A stretch of 64,000 nt of DNA from Streptomyces sp. NBC_01276 (lineage in GTDB: Bacteria; Actinomycetota; Actinomycetes; Streptomycetales; Streptomycetaceae), in the NCBI RefSeq assembly GCF_041435355.1, contig NZ_CP108444.1, forward strand, positions 372,001 to 436,000, written 5' to 3'. The stretch's first letter is position 1. Every line of letters begins with the position of its first letter. The position numbers and the translations under genes are program-made. The notes beneath the pieces were generated by a model that had not been told where the DNA came from, ran no database searches, and worked only from the letters and a program-made list of their open reading frames with translations. Shown here one piece after another: positions 4,300-51,369 of this stretch.

Positions 4300-4303
<4 letters not shown>
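1..4303 (-). CDS. Modular type I polyketide synthase, module 3 (5' part; runs off left edge)
   Basis: This is the next PKS subunit after the loading-module protein and would add one malonyl unit. The start is a GTG at 4303 that overlaps the TGA of the upstream PKS gene (GTGA), so the two are translationally coupled. About 1,434 codons lie in the window. A charged N-terminal docking segment (roughly residues 1-40) comes first. The KS follows, with active Cys near residue 223 in DTACSSS. The AT has GHSVG (Ser near 712) and HAFH, the malonyl-CoA signature. The DH has the HxxxGxxxxP motif (His near 1045). The start of a KR structural subdomain then reaches the window edge. In tylosin-type synthases module 3 is likewise malonyl-specific with DH and KR. 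The remaining domains and the C-terminus are not visible. Confidence 0.93.
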
Positions 4304-17415
<13,112 letters not shown>

Positions 17416-17548
17416 CGGTTCTCCATGGCCAGGGATGAACTGCGCCTTCCCCTGGAGGGGAATGCGCATGAAGTCGAAAGGGGCCGCGGTGGTGTTCCGC
17501 GGGAGCCGCGCGCGGGAAGGGGGGCGCGGGTGCCGGATGCCGGCCGGG

Positions 17549-41363: not shown

Positions 41364-44300
41364 CTACTCTCCGAGCAGGTACCGGATGTGCTTGACCAGC
41401 TCGCCGATGTCCGGGGTGCGGAGCAGGCTGTAGTGGTCGGCGTCGAGGTCGATGACCGTCGGCGGCTCGGCGGAATAGCCGTTGCTGTTCTCGATGAACG
41501 AGTAGTCGTCGCCGCGGGCCTTGAAAATGGTCACCGGCGCGTCGAGCGTGCGCTCGGCCAGCTCACGGAACGAGTACTCGAATTCGTAGGTCTGACCCAC
41601 GACCGAGATGATCCGCTTCGCCAGGTCGACGTCGATTCCCTTCAGCTCGCTGATGAACCCGGCGAAGGACTCCTCGTCCGTGGCGGATTCCAGGCACCTT
41701 TCCAGGTCCGGTCCCGAAATGGTGCCGGTGAACACCGAGAAGAGGATGGTCGTGTAGGCGCGGTTGGCGAAGGACGCCTCACGGCCGTACACCTTGCCGT
41801 TCTCGGCGCGCACGGTCGGCGAGCCCGGGGCGATCAGGAAGAGGTTGTCGACCTTCTCGCCCGCCTGCTCCAGCTGGTAGGCGGTCTCGAAGGCGACGCG
41901 GGCGCCGAAGGAGTAGCCCCACAGGGTGTAGGGGCCCTTCGGCTGGAGCTCCTTGATGGCCTCGATGTCGGCCTTGGCCATCTCCGTGATGGTCGCGTAC
42001 GGGGCCTCGCCCTCGTTGATCCCGTGCGCCTGGATGCCGTAGAACGAGCGGCCGAGGCCGATCTCGCCGGCCAGGGTGCGCAGGTTCATCGGGTAGCCGC
42101 CCAGGCCCGGCCAGCACAGCACCGGGCGGTCCTTGCCGGTCTCGGCGTGCAGGCGCACCAGGCGGGAGGACTCCTGCGCGACCTCGCGCTCAAGGCGGCG
42201 GGAGAGCTTCTCGACCGTGGGGGACTCCAGGACGGACTGCAGCGGCAGGGAGACGCCCAGGCGCGAGTTGAGCTCGCGGATCAGACCGACGGCGATCAGC
42301 GAGTTGCCGCCCGACTCGAAGAAGTCGTCCTGGACCGAGACGCTCTCGCGGCGCAGGGACTTGGCCCAGACCTCCGCGATCTCCTTCTCGGTCTCGGTGC
42401 GCGGGGCGACGAAGGGACGCTCCACGAGCTCGGCGTTGACCTGGTCGGAGACGGCGAGCGCCTTCGCGTCGATCTTGCCGTTGGCGGACAGCGGCAGCCG
42501 CTCGAACACCACGACCCGGTTCGGGATCATGTAGTCCGGCAGGAAGCTGACGAGGTCGTCACGGATCAGCTCCGCCGGGCCGCGCATGTGGACGCTGTCC
42601 TCGCGCATGCCCTCGTGGCCGAGCTGCTCGTCGCTGACCCGGCCGCCGACGAAGAAGTACGACGGACCGCTCTCGACGCCGTTGGCGTGCAGGACGGAGT
42701 CGATCCGGCGCGAGGCCGGCAGCGGGTTGCCGGTCTTCGAGCTGTAGCCCGACGACATGAAGCCCAGGCCGAGGCCGTTCATCATCAGGTGCTGCAGCTT
42801 CTTGCCGAGGGTGACGTAGTGCATCCACTCCTCGGGGGCGCGGCTGATCACCGAGATGCCGAAGCTGGCGGCCTGGTACACCGACTGGTTGATCGCGATG
42901 ACCTGCTTCTTGAGGACGATGTCGTCCGAGAAGCGGGTGAGCTTGCCGTCCGCGTAGCGGTACTGGCCCTCGGGGAGGGTCGCGACCTTGCTGCCGTGCG
43001 TCTGGACGTAGACCTCGGCGTGGTCCTCGCGCCGGCCCGCGTGCGGGACCAGCTCGAAGGTGCCCAGGTAGAAGTCCTCCTCGGGCACGTCCAGCAGGTC
43101 GCGGACGGCCGGCTCGTACGCCAGGTCGCGGATGTCGAGGCCGTAGGACGGCAGCACCTGCTCGAAGAGGCCGACGATGTGGCCGGTCTCGATCTCCAGG
43201 ACCTCCTGGATGTTGTTCTTGTAGACCGGCTCGATGCCGCCGCGCTTGCCGATGAAGTGGACGTGGGCGGTGGGCTTGCCGGTGGCGGCCTTCTCGCTGA
43301 TCAGGACCAGCTGGTGGCGCTGCGGCTGGTAGTAGTAGTAGCCCGGCTTCAGCCCGCCGACGCCCTCCAGCTCGAAGTACAGCTGCGTCGCGTACAGCGC
43401 GCCCGGGGAGGCGTAGCCGTACTTGGGCAGCAGCCGCTCCTCGCTGAGGTACTGGCCGAACCAGCGCAGGATCTGGCCCAGTTCGGCGGGCGCCAGGTCG
43501 GCGGCCTTGCGCGAGTAGGCCGCGGGGACCTGTCCGCCGAGGAGCGCCAGCAGGTCGGCCTCGGTGACCGCGCCGCCCTCGTAGAAGCGGTACGTCTTGC
43601 GGGCGAAGACGCGGCTGCGCTGCTCGGGGGTCGGCTCGGCACCCGGCAGGTCGTAGGCGGTGCGGCCGGCGAGGTCGGCGTCGTCGCGCAGGCCCGGGTT
43701 GGACAGCTGCGCCTTGACCTGGAGCTTGCTCTTCTTCGAGGCGTGGTGGGAGCCGTGGTTGCCCTGGTCCATCAGGGCGGCTTCCTTCTCGCTCAGCTCG
43801 ACGCAGGCGATGAGGTTCTGGAAGCCGGTGCGGCCGTCGTTCTTGACGATGACGGCGGCGTTGCGCACCCAGTCGTGGTTCTCGATCGCCAGGGATATCT
43901 CGTCCAGCTCGACGCGGTAGCCGCGCAGCTTGACCTGGTTGTCGGCGCGGCCGGCGAACTGCACGGTGCCGTCCGGGTTCCACTGGCCCAGGTCACCCGT
44001 CTTGTACAGGCGGGTGGGTCCGGCGCCCTCGGTGAGCTCGATCTCCAGGAAGCGCTCGGCGGTCAGGTCGGGGCGGTGCAGGTAGCCGCGCGCCAGTTGG
44101 CCGCCGCCGATGTACAGCTCGCCGATCTCCCCGATGCCGACGGGCTTGAGGTTCTCCTTGCCGAGGATGTGGTACTCGGTGTCGGCCACCGGGGCGCCGA
44201 TGGAGATGGACTGCGGTGCCTCGTCCAGCTCGGCGGGGTCGACCGCGTACGAGGAGGAGTTGATGGTGCACTCGGTCGGCCCGTAGACGTTGATCAGGGC

Positions 44301-45215
44301 GCGGCCGGGCATCTCCTGCGTGGTCTGGATCGCCAGGAGGCGCGAGAGGGCCTCGCCGCCGCTGAAGATCTGCTGCAGGGAGGTGCACTCGGGGAACTTC
44401 TCGGTGTCGAGCAGGCCCTGGAGCAGGGTGGGGACGCACTGCAGGGTGGTCACGCCGTACTTGACGATGGTCTCGATGAGGCCCTCGGGGTCGGCGTAGA
44501 CGCCGGGGGCGCCCATGACGACGGTGGCGCCGTTGGCCGGGGAGAGGATCTCCCACTGGGCGGCGTCGAAGCTCATCGGGGTCTTCTGCAGGATGGTCTT
44601 GCTGCGGTCGATGCCGTAGGTCTCGCGCAGCCAGCCGAGCTGGCTGACGATGCTGTGGTGCTCGATCATCACGCCCTTCGGCTTGCCCGTGCTGCCGGAG
44701 GTGTAGATGACGTAGGCGAGGCTGTCGGGGCGGGCGCCCTCGATGGCCGGGGCCACCCGGCCCTCGGGCAGGACGAACGCCTCGGACTCGCGCAGGGTGA
44801 CGACCGTGACGTCCTGCGGGGCCAGTTCGCGCAGGCGGGAGACCAGGCGCTGCTGCGCCAGGATGATCTTCGCCTGGCTGTTCTCGATCATGTAGCGCAG
44901 CCGGTCCTCGGGGTACTCCGGGGACAGCGGCAGGTAGGCGGCGCCGGCGGACAGGATGCCCCAGGCGCCGACCATCAGGTCGATGGACGGCTCGACGAAG
45001 AGGCCGACGCAGTCGTCCGTCGAGACCCCGAGGTGTCTGAGGTACTCGGCGAGGGCGGAGCTTCTGGACGCCAGCTCACGGTAGGTGAGCTTCTCGTCCC
45101 GGTAGGCGACGGCGGTCGCCTCGGGGTGCTCCGCGACCCGCTTCGCCAGCAGGTCGGGCAACGTGGTGGTGCCGCGCAGGGTGGGCTCGAGCACGCTGGT
45201 CTCCTGAAGAGTCAT
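41364..45215 (-). CDS. Single-module NRPS, indigoidine synthetase type (A-Ox-PCP-TE)
   Basis: A 1,283-residue synthetase nearly the size of BpsA/IndC (1,282). It activates L-glutamine in known members, oxidises it with a flavin domain and releases a cyclised product. The A domain has YIYTSGSTGKPKG and the YGPTECT core. The FMN-dependent oxidase domain is inserted in the A domain (about 550-900, SYYYYQPQ-like region GYYYYQPQRHQLVL). The PCP has FFESGGNSLI (Ser near 972). The TE has WGYSFGA (Ser near 1102). AAGGAAG precedes ATG 45215. Alone it would give indigoidine. With the PsuG-like and phosphoribosyl genes upstream, it more likely supplies the base of a C-nucleoside, as in minimycin and showdomycin. 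Confidence 0.93.
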   Translation of the reverse strand: MTLQETSVLEPTLRGTTTLPDLLAKRVAEHPEATAVAYRDEKLTYRELASRSSALAEYLRHLGVSTDDCVGLFVEPSIDLMVGAWGILSAGAAYLPLSPEYPEDRLRYMIENSQAKIILAQQRLVSRLRELAPQDVTVVTLRESEAFVLPEGRVAPAIEGARPDSLAYVIYTSGSTGKPKGVMIEHHSIVSQLGWLRETYGIDRSKTILQKTPMSFDAAQWEILSPANGATVVMGAPGVYADPEGLIETIVKYGVTTLQCVPTLLQGLLDTEKFPECTSLQQIFSGGEALSRLLAIQTTQEMPGRALINVYGPTECTINSSSYAVDPAELDEAPQSISIGAPVADTEYHILGKENLKPVGIGEIGELYIGGGQLARGYLHRPDLTAERFLEIELTEGAGPTRLYKTGDLGQWNPDGTVQFAGRADNQVKLRGYRVELDEISLAIENHDWVRNAAVIVKNDGRTGFQNLIACVELSEKEAALMDQGNHGSHHASKKSKLQVKAQLSNPGLRDDADLAGRTAYDLPGAEPTPEQRSRVFARKTYRFYEGGAVTEADLLALLGGQVPAAYSRKAADLAPAELGQILRWFGQYLSEERLLPKYGYASPGALYATQLYFELEGVGGLKPGYYYYQPQRHQLVLISEKAATGKPTAHVHFIGKRGGIEPVYKNNIQEVLEIETGHIVGLFEQVLPSYGLDIRDLAYEPAVRDLLDVPEEDFYLGTFELVPHAGRREDHAEVYVQTHGSKVATLPEGQYRYADGKLTRFSDDIVLKKQVIAINQSVYQAASFGISVISRAPEEWMHYVTLGKKLQHLMMNGLGLGFMSSGYSSKTGNPLPASRRIDSVLHANGVESGPSYFFVGGRVSDEQLGHEGMREDSVHMRGPAELIRDDLVSFLPDYMIPNRVVVFERLPLSANGKIDAKALAVSDQVNAELVERPFVAPRTETEKEIAEVWAKSLRRESVSVQDDFFESGGNSLIAVGLIRELNSRLGVSLPLQSVLESPTVEKLSRRLEREVAQESSRLVRLHAETGKDRPVLCWPGLGGYPMNLRTLAGEIGLGRSFYGIQAHGINEGEAPYATITEMAKADIEAIKELQPKGPYTLWGYSFGARVAFETAYQLEQAGEKVDNLFLIAPGSPTVRAENGKVYGREASFANRAYTTILFSVFTGTISGPDLERCLESATDEESFAGFISELKGIDVDLAKRIISVVGQTYEFEYSFRELAERTLDAPVTIFKARGDDYSFIENSNGYSAEPPTVIDLDADHYSLLRTPDIGELVKHIRYLLGE

Positions 45216-45482
45216 TTCCCGCTTCCTTACGTTCCGTTGTGGAGCAACGGGCGCGTACGAAACGCCCCCGCACCGGGCCCCGGTGTGTCGGTGAGCCCGC
45301 GATGCGACACCTCACCCGCGCGTGGAGAGCGGTTCCGCCGGGAGGCGGAAGCCGCGGCACGGTGGGCGTCGGAGGCCGGAACACTGTCCGGCCGGGAAAA
45401 CCGAAGAACGAGGGCGCGAGGCCGGAGCCTCACCACCCGGGATGACCGGAACGGCGCGGTGCGTGCGGCCGCCCTCCCCCAA
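45216..45482. other. Non-coding leader region of the NRPS gene
   Basis: No convincing gene is present between the NRPS start and the terminator at 45483. On the minus strand a small hairpin CCGTTG/CAACGG lies just before the NRPS ribosome binding site, and a larger GC-rich inverted repeat lies about 110 bp upstream. No TTGAC repeat like that of the SARP promoter is seen. Confidence 0.5.
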
Positions 45483-45516
45483 CGGACGGACGGGCCCCCG
45501 TCGGCCCGTCCGTCCG
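45483..45516 (-). terminator. Hairpin terminator after the PRPP synthetase gene
   Basis: A 13-bp perfect stem (CGGACGGACGGGC and its complement, arms 45483-45495 and 45504-45516) with an 8-nt loop begins 5 bp after the stop codon. No T-run follows. It separates the upstream operon from the NRPS gene. Confidence 0.75.
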
Positions 45517-45521
45517 GGCGT

Positions 45522-46481
45522 TCACCGGCTCTGGAGGAGCCGGGTCACTGATCCGTTCTCGAAGACCTCGCGAGAGGCTCCGGCGATGAGCGGGGCGATG
45601 GACAGGACGGTGACCTTGTCCAGTCCGAGCGCCCCGGGCACCGGCAGGGTGTCCGTGAAGACGAACTCGCTGACGCGGGAGTTCTTCAGCCGGTCCGCGG
45701 CGGGGCCGGAGAGCACCCCGTGCGTGGCCGCCACGATGACGTCCTTCGCCCCCTGGGCGAAGAGGGCGTCGGCCGCGGCGCAGATGGTGCCGCCGGTGTC
45801 GATCATGTCGTCGACCAGTACGCACACGCGGTCGCGTACGTCGCCGACCACCTCGTGGGCCGTGACCTGGTGGGCCACGTCCTTGTCGCGCCTCTTGTGG
45901 ACGATCGCGAGCGGTGCGCCCAGCCGGTCGCACCAGCCGTCCGCCACGCGCACGCGGCCGGCGTCGGGCGAGACCACGGTCAGGTCCTCGCGGTCCACCT
46001 TGGAGCCGATGTAGTCCGCGAGGACCGGCATGGCGAAGAGGTGGTCCACGGGGCCGTCGAAGAACCCCTGGATCTGGTCGGCGTGCAGGTCCACCGTGAG
46101 GATCCGGTCCGCGCCGGCCGTCTTGAGCAGGTCCGCCACCAGGCGGGCCGAGATGGGTTCCCGCCCGCTGTGCTTGCGGTCCTGGCGGGCGTACCCGTAG
46201 AACGGCAGGATCACGGTGATGCTGCGGGCCGAGGCCCGCTTCAGCGCGTCGATCATGATCAGCTGTTCCATGATCGACTTGTTGATCGGCGCCGTGTGGC
46301 TCTGGACCACGAAGCAGTCCGCGCCGCGCACGGAGGCGTGGTAGCGGATGTAGATCTCGCCGTTGGCGAAGTCGATCGCCTTCGTCGGGACCAGCGTCGT
46401 GCCCAGCTCGGCGGCGATCGCCTCGGCCAGCTCGGGGTGTGCGCGCCCCGAGAACAGCAGCATCTGCCCGGTCTCGCTCAC
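45522..46481 (-). CDS. prs: Ribose-phosphate diphosphokinase (PRPP synthetase)
   Basis: A 319-residue enzyme that makes PRPP from ribose 5-phosphate and ATP. Typical blocks are MLLFSGRAHPELA, FANGEIYIRY, PFYGYARQDRK and the PRPP-binding CVLVDDMIDTGGT. GTG 46481 overlaps the stop of the oxidoreductase gene. This is presumably a second copy beside the housekeeping gene elsewhere. Inside an operon with uracil phosphoribosyltransferase and TrpF-like genes it likely supplies PRPP or drains ribose 5-phosphate for nucleoside formation. Confidence 0.93.
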   Translation of the reverse strand: MSETGQMLLFSGRAHPELAEAIAAELGTTLVPTKAIDFANGEIYIRYHASVRGADCFVVQSHTAPINKSIMEQLIMIDALKRASARSITVILPFYGYARQDRKHSGREPISARLVADLLKTAGADRILTVDLHADQIQGFFDGPVDHLFAMPVLADYIGSKVDREDLTVVSPDAGRVRVADGWCDRLGAPLAIVHKRRDKDVAHQVTAHEVVGDVRDRVCVLVDDMIDTGGTICAAADALFAQGAKDVIVAATHGVLSGPAADRLKNSRVSEFVFTDTLPVPGALGLDKVTVLSIAPLIAGASREVFENGSVTRLLQSR

Positions 46482-47560
46482 GCCGCGCCGGCCTCGGCGA
46501 GCGTCGGGTAGTCGGTGTAACCGGTGTGGTCGCCGCCGTAGAACTTGCTCTGGTCGGCCTCGGCCAGCGCGGCGCCGGTGCGGATGCGCTCGGTCAGGTC
46601 CGGGTTGGCGAGGAAGGCCGAGCCGAAGGCGACCGCGCAGGCGACACCGGTCTCCAGCGCCTCGGTGGCGATCTCGGCCGAGACCGGGACGCCGTTCTCC
46701 GGGTGCGGGCACAGGATGATCGTGCCGGTCCACTGCGCGCGCAGGGCGGCGATGTGGTCGCGGTTGCCGCCCTCCAGGATGTGCAGGAAGGCCACCGGCG
46801 GGAGGGCCGCGACGAGCGCCTCGTAAAGGGCGTGGGTGTCGCCCTCGACGATGTCGTTGTACGGGTTCGACGGCGAGATGCGCACGCCGACGCGGTCGGC
46901 GCCGATGCGCTCGGAGACCGCCTCGATCACCTCGATCGCGAAGCGGACGCGGTTCTCGACCGAGCCGCCGTACTGGTCGGTGCGCTGGTTGCTGTTCTCC
47001 GCCAGGAACTGGTGGAGCAGGAAGCCGTTGCCCGCGTGGACCTCGACACCGTCGAAGCCGGCCTCGATGGCGAGCTCGGCGGCGTCCGCGTGCTCCTTGA
47101 CGACCTCGGCGATCTCCTCGACCGTCAGGGCGCGCGGCTCCGGGTAGTCCAGCGGACCCTCGGGGCCGTAGGCCTGGCCGGCCGCGGCGACGGCGGACGG
47201 GGCGACCGACTGGTGGCCGCTCGGGTACAGCGAGGGGTGGCCGATGCGGCCGGCGTGCATGAGCTGCACCACGATCTTGCCGCCGGCGGCGTGCACGGCC
47301 TCGGTGACGGGCTTCCAGGACTCGGCCTGCTCCTGGGTGTGCAGACCGGGGCTGTTGCCGAAGCCCTGGCCCACGGCGCTGGGCTGCGCCCCCTCGGTGA
47401 TGATCAGGCCGGCGCCGGCCCGCTGGCCGTAGTAGGTGGCCATCAGGTCGGTGGCCAGGCCCTCGGCGGTCGCCCGGTTGCGGGACATGGGCGCCATGAC
47501 CACTCGGTTGCTCAGGGCCAGCTTCCCCAGGGTGACCGGCTCGAACAGCTTCTCGGACAT
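46478..47560 (-). CDS. Old yellow enzyme family NADH:flavin oxidoreductase
   Basis: A 360-residue FMN-dependent (beta/alpha)8 barrel. Features are LFEPVTLGKLALSNRVVMAPM at the N-terminus, the FDGVEVHAGNGFLLHQFL active-site strand and RFAIEVIEAV. OYEs reduce activated C=C bonds, and some run in the oxidative direction. No role in a related C-nucleoside pathway is certain; reduction or oxidation of an NRPS-derived unsaturated lactam or pyrrole is plausible. It is co-transcribed with the PRPP synthetase through a GTGA overlap. Confidence 0.9.
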   Translation of the reverse strand: MSEKLFEPVTLGKLALSNRVVMAPMSRNRATAEGLATDLMATYYGQRAGAGLIITEGAQPSAVGQGFGNSPGLHTQEQAESWKPVTEAVHAAGGKIVVQLMHAGRIGHPSLYPSGHQSVAPSAVAAAGQAYGPEGPLDYPEPRALTVEEIAEVVKEHADAAELAIEAGFDGVEVHAGNGFLLHQFLAENSNQRTDQYGGSVENRVRFAIEVIEAVSERIGADRVGVRISPSNPYNDIVEGDTHALYEALVAALPPVAFLHILEGGNRDHIAALRAQWTGTIILCPHPENGVPVSAEIATEALETGVACAVAFGSAFLANPDLTERIRTGAALAEADQSKFYGGDHTGYTDYPTLAEAGAA

Positions 47561-47629
47561 GTGTCTCTCCAGACTGAGGTCAACGCGTGGTGCGGTGGTG
47601 GTACGGACAACGCCTGTGGGCGGGACGGA

Positions 47630-48574
47630 TCAGCGGCCCGCGAGTTCGGCGAGGTGGCGGGAGTGGGCGACGGCCAGCCGGCCGGCCGCCTCGGCGCAGG
47701 AGGCGAGGACGGCCATGTTGGCCTTGGCCGAACGGCCCTCGGTCGCCGCGTCGACGGCGCGCATCAGGTACTTGGTGATGGCCTGGCCCGACACCCCGTC
47801 ACGGGTGGCCTCGGCGACCGCGGCGCGGATGGCCGTGTCCACCTCGGTGGAGTCGATGGCGTCCTCCTCCCTGACCGGGGTGGTGATCAGGAAGGAGCTG
47901 TTGTTGCCGAGGGCCCAGTGGGCCTCGACGGCGCGGGCGATGACCTGCTCGTCGTCCAGGCGGTGGGGCGCCTTGTGGCCGCTCGTACGGCAGTAGAAGG
48001 CGGGGAAGTCGTCCGAGCGGTACGCGACGACGGGGACGCACTGCGTCTCCAGGTACTCCAGGGTCAGACCGAGGTCGAGGATCATCTTCGCGCCCGCGCA
48101 GACGACGGCGACCTTGGAGCGGGTGAACTGGATGAGGTCCGAGGACACGTCCCAGGTCTCCTGGGCGCCCCGGTGCACGCCGCCGATGCCGGCGGACGAG
48201 AAGAACGGGATCCCCGCGAGCTCGGCGGCGACGACGGAGGTGGCCACGGTGGTGGCACCGAGGCCGCCCTGCGCCAGTACGACCGGCAGGTCCCGGCTGG
48301 ACACCTTGGGGATGCCGGGCAGGGAGGCGAAGCGCTCGATGTCGGAGTCGCTCATGCCGACCCGGATCTCACCGGCCTCGATGCAGATCGTCGCGGGCAC
48401 CGCGCCACCGGCCCGTACGGCGTCCTCCACCTTGCGGGCGGTGGCCGCGTTGTCCGGGTAGGGCAGACCGTGCGTGATGACGTTGCTCTCCAGGGCGACG
48501 ACGGCCGCGCCCTCGTGGAGGGCCTCGCGGACCTCCTCGGTGTAGACGACGGGGATGCCGTTGCTTGCGCTCAT
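47630..48574 (-). CDS. Pseudouridine-5'-phosphate glycosidase family (PsuG/IndA), probable C-glycosynthase
   Basis: A 314-residue protein matching PsuG in length and motifs. It shows [14 protein letters not shown] with the conserved Glu, [24 protein letters not shown], and [12 protein letters not shown], whose Lys corresponds to the Schiff-base Lys for ribose 5-phosphate in E. coli PsuG. In minimycin, showdomycin and alnumycin pathways homologues run in the synthetic direction and join ribose 5-phosphate to a carbon acceptor. In indigoidine clusters the homologue is IndA. It sits 69 bp upstream of the OYE gene. A C-nucleotide-forming role is the best inference; plain nucleoside salvage is less likely here. 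Confidence 0.9.
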
Positions 48575-48584
48575 CGGGGCTCTC

Positions 48585-48818
48585 TCAACTCTCGTTCCAG
48601 TAGCCGGGCGCTTTGATCAGCTCGTCCCGGTGGGCCGCTATCTCGGCGAGGACCTGGCTCTCCCAGTCCTCCGGTGTGACCGGCTCAAGGGAGATCGAGA
48701 CGGTGTCCTCCCCGGTGGCGAAGGTGCTCGTCACAGCGGCGGTGACCGCTTCGTCGATGGCCCTGAGCTGCTCGTCCGTGAAGTTCCTCGGGTAGTGCCT
48801 GACGTGGACGTGGGGCAC
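48585..48818 (-). CDS. 4-oxalocrotonate tautomerase-superfamily protein (PptA-like)
   Basis: A 77-residue protein starting [10 protein letters not shown], so Pro becomes the N-terminal residue after Met removal, as required for catalysis in this superfamily. The end, [11 protein letters not shown], resembles E. coli PptA. GTG 48818 is the start that exposes Pro. It lies 10 bp before the PsuG-like gene. It could tautomerise a cyclic intermediate from the NRPS before or after C-glycosylation; this is inferred from context. Confidence 0.85.
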
Positions 48819-48879
48819 GGTCTCGGTCCTCTCACGGAGTGGTGCGCGTTCTGGTCTCTTGTGTGTGGGGGGGGTGGGC

Positions 48880-48913
48880 GGCACACCGCGGACGGGGGAG
48901 ACCGCGGTGTGCC
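48880..48913 (-). terminator. Hairpin between the exporter and tautomerase genes
   Basis: A 12-bp perfect stem (GGCACACCGCGG and its complement, arms 48880-48891 and 48902-48913) lies in the 170-bp gap. No T-run follows. It could limit read-through or protect mRNA ends rather than fully terminate. Confidence 0.55.
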
Positions 48914-48988
48914 ACCACCGCTCCCCGCCCGCGCCCGGGGGGAAGGGGCCCGGCGGCGGGGAGTCTCGGGCGGGAGGCCGTCGGGGCG

Positions 48989-49918
48989 TTAGGCCTCGAC
49001 GGATTCCCGCGGGGTCGGGCGGGCCGCCCCGGGCTCGGGCTCCGGCTCCGGCTTCTTGCGGCCGGGCCGCGGCTGGGCCAGGAACACCGCGCCGACGACG
49101 ATCAGCGCCCCGACGATCTGGAGCGGCGAGAGCGACTGGTCGAGGACGAAGTAGCCGAGCAGGGTGGCCGCCAGGGGGGAGGCGAAGCTCAGGAACGAGA
49201 CGGCCAGGGCGGGCAGGCGCTGCACGCCGCGGAACCAGATCGCGTAGGCGAACAGGGCCCCGATGATGCCGAGGTAGAGGAAGCCCCAGATGTTCTTGCC
49301 GGTGATCGCGTCGGGCAGGCCCTCGCCGATCAGCGCGATCGGGAGCAGGACCAGACCGCCGACGGTCAGCTGCCAGCCCGTGAAGGGGAGCAGGCCGACG
49401 CCCTCGGGGCGTCCCCAGCGCTTGGTCAGCACGATGCCGGAGGCCATGCTGAGCGCGCCCAGCAGGCCGGCGATGACACCGGTGGCGTTCAGCCCGGCGT
49501 TCGGCTGGAGGACGAGCAGCGCCACACCGGCCGCGCCGAGCGCACAGGCCGCCAGGTGGATCCGCTTGATCTTCTCCTTCAGCAGGACGGCGCCGAGCAG
49601 CAGCACGATCATCGGCTGGATGGACATCACCAGCGCGGCGACACCACCCGGCAGGTGGTAGGCGGCGACGAAGAGCAGGTAGAAGAAGGCGCCGATGTTG
49701 AGGACGCCCAGGACCAGGGCCCGCCACCACCAGATTCCCTTGGGCAGCGTCCGGCCGAAGAGCACCAGGATCAGGCCGGCGGGCAGGGCGCGGAGCACCG
49801 CCGCCAGCAGGGGGCGCCCCTCGGGCAGCAGTTCCGTGGTGACCAGGTAGGTCGAACCCCAGATCGCGGGCGCCAGCGCCGTGAGCGCGGAGTCCGCCAG
49901 GGTGCGGGAGCTCTTCAT
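48989..49918 (-). CDS. EamA/DMT-family transporter, ten membrane segments
   Basis: A 309-residue integral membrane protein with two EamA repeats and about ten hydrophobic helices. The C-terminal tail is basic and Glu/Pro-rich. DMT exporters of this type occur in small-nucleoside clusters (the minimycin cluster has one). ATG 49918 overlaps the stop of the uracil phosphoribosyltransferase gene, so the two are coupled. Export of the cassette product and self-protection is the likely role. Confidence 0.88.
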   Translation of the reverse strand: MKSSRTLADSALTALAPAIWGSTYLVTTELLPEGRPLLAAVLRALPAGLILVLFGRTLPKGIWWWRALVLGVLNIGAFFYLLFVAAYHLPGGVAALVMSIQPMIVLLLGAVLLKEKIKRIHLAACALGAAGVALLVLQPNAGLNATGVIAGLLGALSMASGIVLTKRWGRPEGVGLLPFTGWQLTVGGLVLLPIALIGEGLPDAITGKNIWGFLYLGIIGALFAYAIWFRGVQRLPALAVSFLSFASPLAATLLGYFVLDQSLSPLQIVGALIVVGAVFLAQPRPGRKKPEPEPEPGAARPTPRESVEA

Positions 49919-50583
49919 CGGGCGGCGCCCGAGTCGGTCGTACCGAAGAAGCGGTCACCGAAGTCGCCGATGCCCGGGATCATGAACGCGTGCTCGTTGA
50001 GGCGTTCCTCGACCGAGGAGGTGACGATCTTGACGGCCGGGTGCTCGCGGTGGACAGCGGCGATGCCCTCGGGGGCGGCGAGGAAGTTGACGAAGACGAT
50101 GTGCTCCTCGCGGACGCCCGCTTCGAGGAGCACGCCGATGGCGGCGTTGGCGCTGCCGCCCGTGGCGAGCATCGGCTCCAGGAGCAGGACGTGCCGGTCC
50201 GCGATGTCGGCCGGCAGGTGCTGGTAGAGGAGGTGCGGGAGCTTGGTGGTCTTGTCCCGCTGGATGAGGACCTTGCCGACGGGGATGTTCGGCACGACCT
50301 CGCGCAGTTCGTCCACCATGGAGTCACCGGCCCGGATCACGGGCACGGCGCACAGCTTGGGGCCGAAGGTGAGCCCTTCGTAGGTCTCGCCGACCGGCGT
50401 GACGACCTTCTGCTTGTCGAACGGCAGCTGGTCGAGGGCCGATTCGAGCAGGAGCCGGATGATGCGCCGGGAGTAGAACACGAAGTCCGCACGCGACGCG
50501 TCGCGATCGCGGATGATCGTGTGCATGGCCCGGAGCTGGTTGGTCTGCGGCAGCGGGTGGACGTTGTGGTGGCCGGTCGCCAT
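49915..50583 (-). CDS. Uracil phosphoribosyltransferase family protein
   Basis: A 222-residue phosphoribosyltransferase. The PRPP loop reads LLLEPMLATGGSANAAI and the C-terminus has the UPRT signature PGIGDFGDRFFGT. AVPVIRAGDSMVDELREVVP is also conserved. The family converts uracil and PRPP to UMP. In the minimycin cluster a UPRT homologue is also present. Here it could act on a uracil-like base, raise UMP to counter a toxic uridine analogue, or recycle material. It follows the TrpF-like gene after a hairpin. Confidence 0.9.
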   Translation of the reverse strand: MATGHHNVHPLPQTNQLRAMHTIIRDRDASRADFVFYSRRIIRLLLESALDQLPFDKQKVVTPVGETYEGLTFGPKLCAVPVIRAGDSMVDELREVVPNIPVGKVLIQRDKTTKLPHLLYQHLPADIADRHVLLLEPMLATGGSANAAIGVLLEAGVREEHIVFVNFLAAPEGIAAVHREHPAVKIVTSSVEERLNEHAFMIPGIGDFGDRFFGTTDSGAAR

Positions 50584-50619
50584 GAGAACCTGCTTCTCGT
50601 CGGTCGGTGGAGACGGGCT

Positions 50620-50657
50620 GCGGCCGGGCCCGGGGCCAGGAGGCCCCGGGCGGCCGC
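50620..50657 (-). terminator. GC-rich hairpin between the TrpF-like and uracil phosphoribosyltransferase genes
   Basis: CCCGGGGCC/GGCCCCGGG (50629-50637, 50642-50650) is extended by GCGGCC/GGCCGC after a bulge. There is no T-run, so partial termination or mRNA processing is possible. Confidence 0.55.
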
Positions 50658-50679
50658 AACCGCATGGTGGGTACCGCGG

Positions 50680-51369
50680 TCAGGAGCCCGCGATCTCGGC
50701 GAACGCGCGGCGCGACTCGGCCACGAACTTCGCGACCTTGGCGCGGTCCTTGCGGCGGTCGCTGCCCTCAAGGAGGCTGTGGGCGTCGACGGCGGCGGGC
50801 TTGACGAAGCGGATCGCGTCCGCGACGTTCTCCGGGCTCAGGCCGCCGGCCATCATCAGGGGCTTGGGCGAACGGCGCACGAGCTCGGCGCTGACGTTCC
50901 AGTCGTGGGTGAGGCCGGTGGCGCCCTTGGCACCGGTGGCCGGGTTGAAGGTGTCGGTGATGAACATGTCCACCACGTCCGCGACCTCGTCGACGAGCTG
51001 CAGCAGCTCCTCGGCGTTGTCCTCCTTCACGACCAGGCTCTTGAGCACGTAGAGGTCGGGGCGGTTGGCCTTGAGCTTGCGCAGCTGCTCCGGCTCGACG
51101 TCGCCGTGGAGCTGGACGGCCTTGACCCCGAGCTGGGTGGTGAACGCGCTGATCTCGTCGGCATCCGTCATGTAGCTGATGAGGACGCCCTCCTGAGGGG
51201 CGGTCAGGCCGGCGATGATCTCCGTGGCCGCGGCCTCGGAGATGTCGTCCTTGCCCGACGGGAGGCGGAGCGGGAAGCCGAACCAGTCGACGCCCTCCTC
51301 GGCCAGCAGCGCGGCCTCTTCGGCGTCGATGATGCCGGCGACCTGGACCAGGTCCTTCACGTCACTCAT
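50680..51369 (-). CDS. TrpF-like (phosphoribosylanthranilate isomerase fold) protein lacking the catalytic Cys
   Basis: A 229-residue (beta/alpha)8 barrel. The first strand, normally KxCGI, reads LVQVAGIID, so the general-base Cys is Ala (GCC). The general-acid Asp appears kept in FITDTFNPATGAKGATG, followed by the LTHDW block, and the phosphate-binding end MMAGGLSPENV is intact. It therefore probably binds a phosphoribosylated ligand but does not perform the standard Amadori reaction. It is the first gene of the cassette operon, behind the promoter region at 51370-51550. Function is unassigned; an isomerase or lyase acting on a C- or N-riboside phosphate is possible. Confidence 0.85.
   Translation of the reverse strand: MSDVKDLVQVAGIIDAEEAALLAEEGVDWFGFPLRLPSGKDDISEAAATEIIAGLTAPQEGVLISYMTDADEISAFTTQLGVKAVQLHGDVEPEQLRKLKANRPDLYVLKSLVVKEDNAEELLQLVDEVADVVDMFITDTFNPATGAKGATGLTHDWNVSAELVRRSPKPLMMAGGLSPENVADAIRFVKPAAVDAHSLLEGSDRRKDRAKVAKFVAESRRAFAEIAGS

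Follow-up and report, generated by a model that had tools for sequence, protein, structure and literature searches.

A recurrent TrpF-bearing "indigoidine" gene cassette in Streptomyces that looks like a branch of C-nucleoside biosynthesis

The eight-gene cassette

The stretch of DNA analysed here (the window: 64,000 nucleotides of Streptomyces sp. NBC_01276, positions 372,001 to 436,000 of NZ_CP108444.1) is part of contig C3 in a genome of 9.37 Mb and 5 contigs, and carries at 41364-51369 a cassette of eight co-directional genes, as an earlier sequence-only reading had reported; all lie on the minus strand. The operon, previously filed as blue-pigment genes, combines an indigoidine-type nonribosomal peptide synthetase (NRPS) with, among others, a candidate C-glycosynthase of the PsuG family and a TrpF-like protein, and appears to represent a so far undescribed branch of the pathway by which ribose is attached to a glutamine-derived ring. 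In order of transcription the genes are the following:

50680..51369, minus: TrpF-like protein of the phosphoribosylanthranilate isomerase (PRAI) family, first gene transcribed, 229 aa; Ala11 replaces the catalytic Cys, acid Asp139 kept
49915..50583, minus: uracil phosphoribosyltransferase (UPRT), MinD-like, with self-protection as its proposed role, 222 aa; Pfam UPRTase; GIGDFGDR motif kept; nearest solved chain 1upf
48989..49918, minus: probable EamA/DMT-type exporter, 309 aa; TIGR00950 205.7 bits, below the cut-off of 230.2; homologue on the auricin plasmid pSA3239 annotated as EamA
48585..48818, minus: stand-alone tautomerase, 77 aa, starting Met-Pro; Pfam Tautomerase 22.8 bits against a cut-off of 22; PptA model 71 bits, below its cut-off of 83
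47630..48574, minus: PsuG/IndA C-glycosynthase candidate, 314 aa; Pfam Indigoidine_A; alignments to 4gij and 4ex8; phylogenetic trees
46478..47560, minus: ene-reductase of the Old Yellow Enzyme (OYE) family, N-ethylmaleimide reductase-like, 360 aa; Pfam Oxidored_FMN; HxGN motif at 175; NF007899 331.8 bits, below the cut-off of 403
45522..46481, minus: phosphoribosyl pyrophosphate (PRPP) synthetase, extra copy, 319 aa, GTG start; NF002844 553.7 bits, above the cut-off of 438
41364..45215, minus: indigoidine-type single-module NRPS (A-Ox-T-TE) without a fused Tau domain, 1283 aa; Pfam AMP-binding, PP-binding and Thioesterase; DDFFESGGNS at 963 (carrier) and GYSFG at 1100 (thioesterase)

The NRPS is of the IndC/BpsA type by domain order and homology, with glutamine as its predicted substrate; its oxidase region gives no Pfam match of its own and was assigned by homology only, through a 381-aa query that finds 65 further NRPS places in the genus. 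In the PsuG-family protein, Lys163 aligns with the position occupied by Ala in PDB 4gim, so that the catalytic Lys proposed from the sequence is in place. The UPRT and exporter genes overlap by 4 bases, as do those for OYE and PRPP synthetase, and the GC content over the cassette is 0.68-0.71, compared with 0.73-0.76 in the 2-kb bins on either side. A profile search, which very distant HAD proteins would escape, matched no HAD protein of the minimycin type in the window, in agreement with the earlier remark that no HAD phosphatase was seen; a questin-oxidase (DUF4243) gene was likewise not found there.

Both the UPRT and the PRPP synthetase are extra copies, since the genome has another upp and another prs on contig C1, the former 35% identical to the cassette UPRT in a match that reads through one stop codon and the latter 82% identical to the cassette PRPP synthetase. 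The cassette UPRT scores 245 bits against 1upf and 1bd3 and less than 142 bits against 1i5e, 1v9s, 2ehj and similar chains, is 57-69% identical to the UPRTs of five HAD/DUF4243 clusters, and, as judged from its sequence, matches MinD of minimycin biosynthesis by kind. PsuG-type synthases use ribose 5-phosphate and not PRPP, and the PRPP synthetase therefore likely feeds the UPRT.

Recurrence of the cassette, the TrpF/HAD pattern and active-site changes

Scanning genome contigs for the TrpF-like protein gave 40 loci, in 36 of which (L005-L040) UPRT adjoins TrpF-like and, up to the contig ends, the remaining cassette genes come after in an order that varies; L041-L044 are without cassette genes. 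Among the 36, NRPS and tautomerase are missing in L020 and L023, and several lack the DMT, OYE or PRPP synthetase gene. The hosts include Streptomyces, Kitasatospora, Actinoplanes, Rhodococcus, Microbispora, Glycomyces, Agrobacterium vitis, Epibacterium, Amylibacter, Shewanella, Pseudoalteromonas and others. With another 12 loci (L047, L051, L053-L055, L060, L067, L082, L083, L088, L095 and L103), the TrpF-like gene stands beside UPRT in 48 distinct loci of Actinomycetota and Pseudomonadota, the same-record pairs L005/L045 and L027/L048 being counted once and the closely related Microbispora loci (L033-L037, L040) each singly. A phylum survey matched 5 of 396 genomes, namely our own, three that the genus survey had also found and a new one (G598). 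Since the gene set recurs across phyla, the cassette is no chance assembly, and the TrpF-like gene marks a widespread sub-type, not an oddity of this strain. The sequence-only reading had placed the TrpF-like, tautomerase and OYE genes outside the indigoidine core; they are, however, recurrent parts of such clusters and not peculiar additions here, and, for the tautomerase, there is a Tau domain in MinA (PMC8724604) and a tautomerase gene in the roseobacter igi set (PMC5014874).

In the genus, 392 genomes were searched with the NRPS oxidase region; 62 matched, our own included, with 65 places in the others, each of which was tested for 13 genes, some being cut by contig ends. PsuG is present in 18 of the 65 loci, 17 of them readable; the remaining one, L081, is cut by a contig end, and its NRPS hit coordinates equal those in the L014 genome, whose contig has TrpF-like. 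All 17 carry UPRT. Eleven have TrpF-like without HAD or questin oxidase and six have HAD without TrpF-like, five of the six also having questin oxidase (DUF4243), with L109 as the exception. So clean a split would arise with odds of 1 in 12,376 if the loci were independent, which they are not. The 47 loci without PsuG yielded no TrpF-like gene, one 85-residue UPRT fragment (L052) and one questin oxidase (L068). Two of these loci stand out in their own right: in L109 the HAD phosphatase (13110-13760) occurs without TrpF-like, OYE or DUF4243 while its PsuG is placed within the auricin-type group, which may point to a change of branch; in L068 the DUF4243-like gene (14537-15718) lies near NRPS and tautomerase, the stretch examined containing neither PsuG nor UPRT nor HAD.

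PsuG is present in 83 of 101 genomes of the genus, and a separate chromosomal PsuG in our genome is 41% identical to the cassette protein. In a tree of 71 rows, the 31 chromosomal PsuGs of the genus split off together with YeiN (4gij) and 8k05 on a branch supported at 100/99, AlnA joins this salvage side at 88/96, and cassette PsuGs with TrpF and with HAD are intermixed outside it. The split between salvage and cassette sequences recurs at 100/99 in a tree of 44 rows, which omits the long branch L047 and 26 of the 31 salvage rows; here AlnA stands on the cassette side, and the cassette-only branch (81/89) is without firm support. The minimycin-like class was defined by gene content, as the PsuGs of HAD/DUF4243-bearing clusters, the sequence of MinB itself not being among the rows; Pfam gave HAD and questin oxidase in L058, questin oxidase in L061 and L069 and HAD in L056, the other assignments coming from tblastn. 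By these sequence comparisons, the cassette PsuG stands with the PsuGs of HAD/DUF4243-bearing NRPS clusters, apart from salvage PsuG. A salvage identity is ruled out by both trees and by the separate chromosomal copy, and the grouping with salvage pseudouridine glycosidases that the sequence-only reading had named as a refutation did not materialise, the protein falling outside the salvage PsuGs of the genus.

In TrpF, the phosphoribosylanthranilate isomerase, the catalytic Cys is the general base. The cassette protein shares the fold and the acid Asp with TrpF, and differs from it in having Ala for the catalytic Cys and in scoring below the cut-off of 13 of 13 NCBIfam TrpF models (best 110.7 bits versus 215); an AlphaFold2 (AF2) model shows the PRAI fold and says nothing on the reaction. 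Both the Ala and the retained Asp are found in 50 of 50 aligned TrpF-like rows, a number that includes the window protein (L003), the identical L016/L017 and the double records L005/L045 and L027/L048, and Ala also replaces Cys in L041-L043 and L047. Three orphan TrpF-like proteins have the same altered active site and no cassette genes nearby (L041:9998-10669, L042:5459-6184 and L043:1065-1721); they come from metagenome-assembled genomes of Ignavibacteria, Chloroherpetonaceae and a marine bacterium, no shared neighbour gene was found around them, and the family may have an older, separate function. In L044, which has no cassette genes, the Cys is present and the starts of the neighbours resemble trp genes.

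Comparison with sister plasmids indicates how the cassette is put together. On the NBC_00158 plasmid, TrpF and OYE are missing, each from its own slot, while PsuG, UPRT, PRPP synthetase, tautomerase, exporter and NRPS are present. On the W1SF4 plasmid, PRPP synthetase, OYE and PsuG are missing between NRPS and tautomerase, and UPRT and TrpF between exporter and hydrolase, with NRPS, tautomerase, exporter and the flanking polyketide and deoxysugar genes retained. TrpF-like had no match in either whole plasmid and PsuG none in the whole W1SF4 plasmid; UPRT, OYE and PRPP synthetase were searched there within 19.6 kb. The genes missing from the sister plasmids are either TrpF and OYE or the whole ribose-side set of five, so the cassette parts behave like modules, which suggests a nested arrangement of a pigment core, a ribose module and a TrpF/OYE module. 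We take loss, and not gain, to be the probable direction of change in the sister plasmids, and the UPRT fragment of L052 favours it.

The flanks of 45 TrpF loci are readable for reductases (L014, L022 and L028 end before this region, and L012 shows only the first 30 OYE residues): 29 have OYE, 8 a WrbA-like FMN reductase, 7 an NmrA-like protein and 1 a nitroreductase only, while none of the four was found in the six HAD-class loci. The families were chosen after viewing the loci, so that the tally is post hoc, and the NmrA-like matches are weak (35-39% identical), L047 being the query itself. In L082 (14769-15458) and many other loci, the window cassette not among them, a nitroreductase-family gene lies beside TrpF-like, next to a divergent MarR-type regulator.

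Known systems and genomic setting

Minimycin (oxazinomycin) biosynthesis is described in a review as involving MinA with a Tau domain, MinB, MinC (HAD plus DUF4243) and MinD (UPRT), with indigoidine and minimycin arising from the same intermediate (PMC8724604). The cassette shares with minABCDT of S. hygroscopicus JCM 4712 an NRPS with oxidase and tautomerase functions, a PsuG-family C-glycosynthase, a UPRT and an exporter (PMC8724604); it differs in lacking MinC, in having the tautomerase as a separate protein, and in adding the TrpF-like, OYE and PRPP synthetase genes. The minimycin logic of NRPS plus PsuG, put forward from the sequence, thus gains support from the PsuG outside the salvage group, the separate chromosomal PsuG and the MinD-like UPRT. 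A PsuG-family C-glycosynthase is also common to showdomycin (SdmA/SdmB, per PMC8724604) and alnumycin (AlnA/AlnB, AlnA by alignment); SdmA and AlnA are each paired with a phosphatase (PMC8724604), whereas the window gave no match to a HAD of the tested type. The igi cluster of the roseobacter Leisingera shares NRPS and a 4-OT-type tautomerase (PMC5014874); it differs in having an arylmalonate decarboxylase and a hydroxyisobutyrate dehydrogenase, neither of which is among the window's cassette genes or had a match in sister locus L045, and L046 has no PsuG, UPRT or TrpF-like match.

The black-pigment region of plasmid pET44827 of C. aurimucosum (L047) has the TrpF-like, UPRT, NRPS, tautomerase, PsuG and EamA genes, and differs in that no OYE or PRPP synthetase was found and an NmrA-like gene lies at its end. 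The authors inferred the link to the pigment from plasmid content and guessed that these genes activate the NRPS (PMC2830990). In the literature search, which covered papers outside subscription, this was the one paper to mention "indigoidine" and "phosphoribosylanthranilate isomerase" together, and none of the matches listed joined "C-nucleoside" with "TrpF". E. ulvae U95, which gave indigoidine peaks by high-performance liquid chromatography/mass spectrometry (PMC7989816), has a cluster of the TrpF type (L029).

The cassette's position between two aromatic polyketide synthase (PKS) blocks is already known. To its left lie a SARP-type regulator, a ketoreductase gene and a polyketide cyclase gene, and to its right an acyltransferase, an MFS exporter and a ketosynthase. 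A 12.3-kb cassette query matches pSA3239 with 95.9% identity over 99%, in two pieces, with the identical eight genes in identical order, and the right flank with 85.6% identity over 88%; pSA3239 is thus a close relative at the same site, the difference being that the auricin paper treats the genes as pigment genes, the "indigoidine" genes, forming an unrelated interruption of aur1 (PMC10409956). No discussion of the extra, non-indigoidine genes was found in the available portions of that paper. Elsewhere in the window, a minus-strand reading frame of 4389 aa at 4300-17469 lies in a stretch with matches to type I PKS genes on other Streptomyces plasmids and is followed on its right by deoxysugar-type matches, apparently another cluster.

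Proposed pathway and alternative explanations

We favour, with moderate confidence, a cassette composed of a minimycin-type C-nucleotide front end, an indigoidine shunt and a new TrpF/reductase tailoring branch. The reactions, products and self-resistance proposed for it, all deduced from the genes, would be as follows: (i) the NRPS activates, oxidises, cyclises and releases L-glutamine as an aminopyridinedione monomer; (ii) the tautomerase, as counterpart of the MinA Tau domain, prepares this monomer as a carbon nucleophile, which PsuG couples to ribose 5-phosphate to give a C-nucleotide, while escaping monomer dimerises to blue indigoidine; (iii) the TrpF-like protein, with a phosphoribosyl isomerase fold that has lost the isomerisation Cys, and a reductase, here OYE, replace MinC; and (iv) the UPRT, supplied by the extra PRPP synthetase, enlarges the uridine monophosphate (UMP) pool to counter a UMP-like product, with monomer or nucleoside leaving the cell through the EamA protein. 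The front-end steps follow the minimycin work as reviewed (PMC8724604); those after the C-glycoside are our own suggestion.

Several observations weigh against this pathway. The product is predicted from genes, and the chemistry credited to this type in the literature consulted is indigoidine or an uncharacterised black pigment (PMC7989816, PMC2830990). TrpF/OYE coupling is not strict, as TrpF occurs without OYE outside the sister-plasmid group, and OYE is not essential to the TrpF type, L009 being without it and eight loci having the WrbA-like protein instead. The exclusivity of TrpF and HAD is not statistically established: a phylogenetic pair test, run without L047 and the same 26 salvage rows, found 2 independent TrpF/HAD pairs on supported branches, which puts significance out of reach. 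Strict exclusivity was not upheld, as L026, one of 36 TrpF-selected loci, has TrpF-like and, directly after OYE, HAD; the latter's profile score of 291 bits means little, the profile having been built with L026 included, and the independent figure is a tblastn identity of 33% over 211 residues. In L015 a HAD hit is on the opposite strand, some 5 kb away from TrpF. L050 has PsuG and UPRT but neither TrpF-like nor HAD, and in the Kitasatospora loci L020 and L023, which keep TrpF-like, UPRT, DMT, PsuG and OYE, the NRPS is not beside the cassette; in these two genomes an NRPS of this type lies at another place, where the stretch taken contains no further cassette gene.

That the cassette serves indigoidine pigment only, with PsuG, UPRT, PRPP synthetase, TrpF-like and OYE helping to balance precursors or to cope with oxidative stress and without a ribosylated product, appears unlikely to us, if by no means negligible. 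The auricin literature names the genes indigoidine genes (PMC10409956), E. ulvae, of the same type, shows indigoidine peaks (PMC7989816), and the W1SF4 plasmid keeps NRPS, tautomerase and exporter without the remainder; however, with PsuG missing from 47 of 65 NRPS loci and TrpF-like from all 47, an indigoidine NRPS can do without the ribose genes, these co-occur and are co-absent, and in 22 of 48 loci the TrpF-like protein is, among the cassette proteins, the one most similar to its window counterpart. A role of PsuG, UPRT and TrpF-like in repair or detoxification, degrading or recycling phosphoribosyl adducts of the reactive NRPS monomer, would suit the naming of PsuG-family enzymes as glycosidases, the action of PRAI-family proteins on phosphoribosylated aromatic amines and the retained acid Asp, which would open the ribose ring. 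Such a role is improbable, since most NRPS loci, being without PsuG, need no such repair, and the closest PsuG relatives outside the TrpF type belong to clusters that have MinC-type partners.

About as doubtful is an acyclic variant, in which the TrpF-like protein performs the first half of the PRAI reaction on the C-nucleotide and the product is an acyclic ribityl C-nucleoside: the Asp would protonate the ring oxygen and the ribose would open, pushed by the electron-rich aminopyridone, to a conjugated exocyclic alkene, which, with no Cys base for an Amadori step, OYE (or the WrbA-like or NmrA-like protein elsewhere) would reduce. The retention of Asp, the loss of Cys and the joint absence of TrpF and OYE in NBC_00158 would then be explained; to our knowledge, acyclic ribityl C-nucleosides are known from no characterised pathway. 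Production of minimycin itself, the phosphatase and DUF4243 oxidase coming from other parts of the genome, has the front end and UPRT in its favour but is very improbable, as no TrpF locus has a DUF4243 match in the stretches examined, versus five of the six HAD-class loci, and our genome has no PF14027 (DUF4243) match, a weak point since no control genome matched either. We give still less credence to AlnA-like C-ribosylation of the neighbouring auricin-type polyketide, which the sequence-only reading had entertained. In its favour are the homology of AlnA to PsuG and the type II PKS genes on both sides of the cassette. Against it, the cassette is found in many loci together with an NRPS of its own, W1SF4 retains the polyketide and deoxysugar genes of the flanks with no PsuG on the plasmid, an AlnB-type HAD partner (of the tested HAD type) was not matched in the window, the auricin abstracts name D-forosamine, not ribose, as the sugar, and the genes are described as an unrelated interruption (PMC10409956).

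If the C-nucleotide pathway with TrpF/reductase tailoring is correct, the "indigoidine" clusters of auricin-type plasmids, marine roseobacter and corynebacterium would constitute a second family of glutamine-derived C-nucleoside pathways, in which a TrpF relative has been turned to new chemistry. The plasmids with the full, the TrpF/OYE-less and the minimal cassette offer a ready-made comparison series. An E. ulvae fosmid conferred antibacterial and antinematodal activity that was credited to indigoidine (PMC7989816), and such activities could be due to a nucleoside that was overlooked; inhibition of RNA polymerase is reported for minimycin (PMC8724604), and its relatives are therefore of drug interest.

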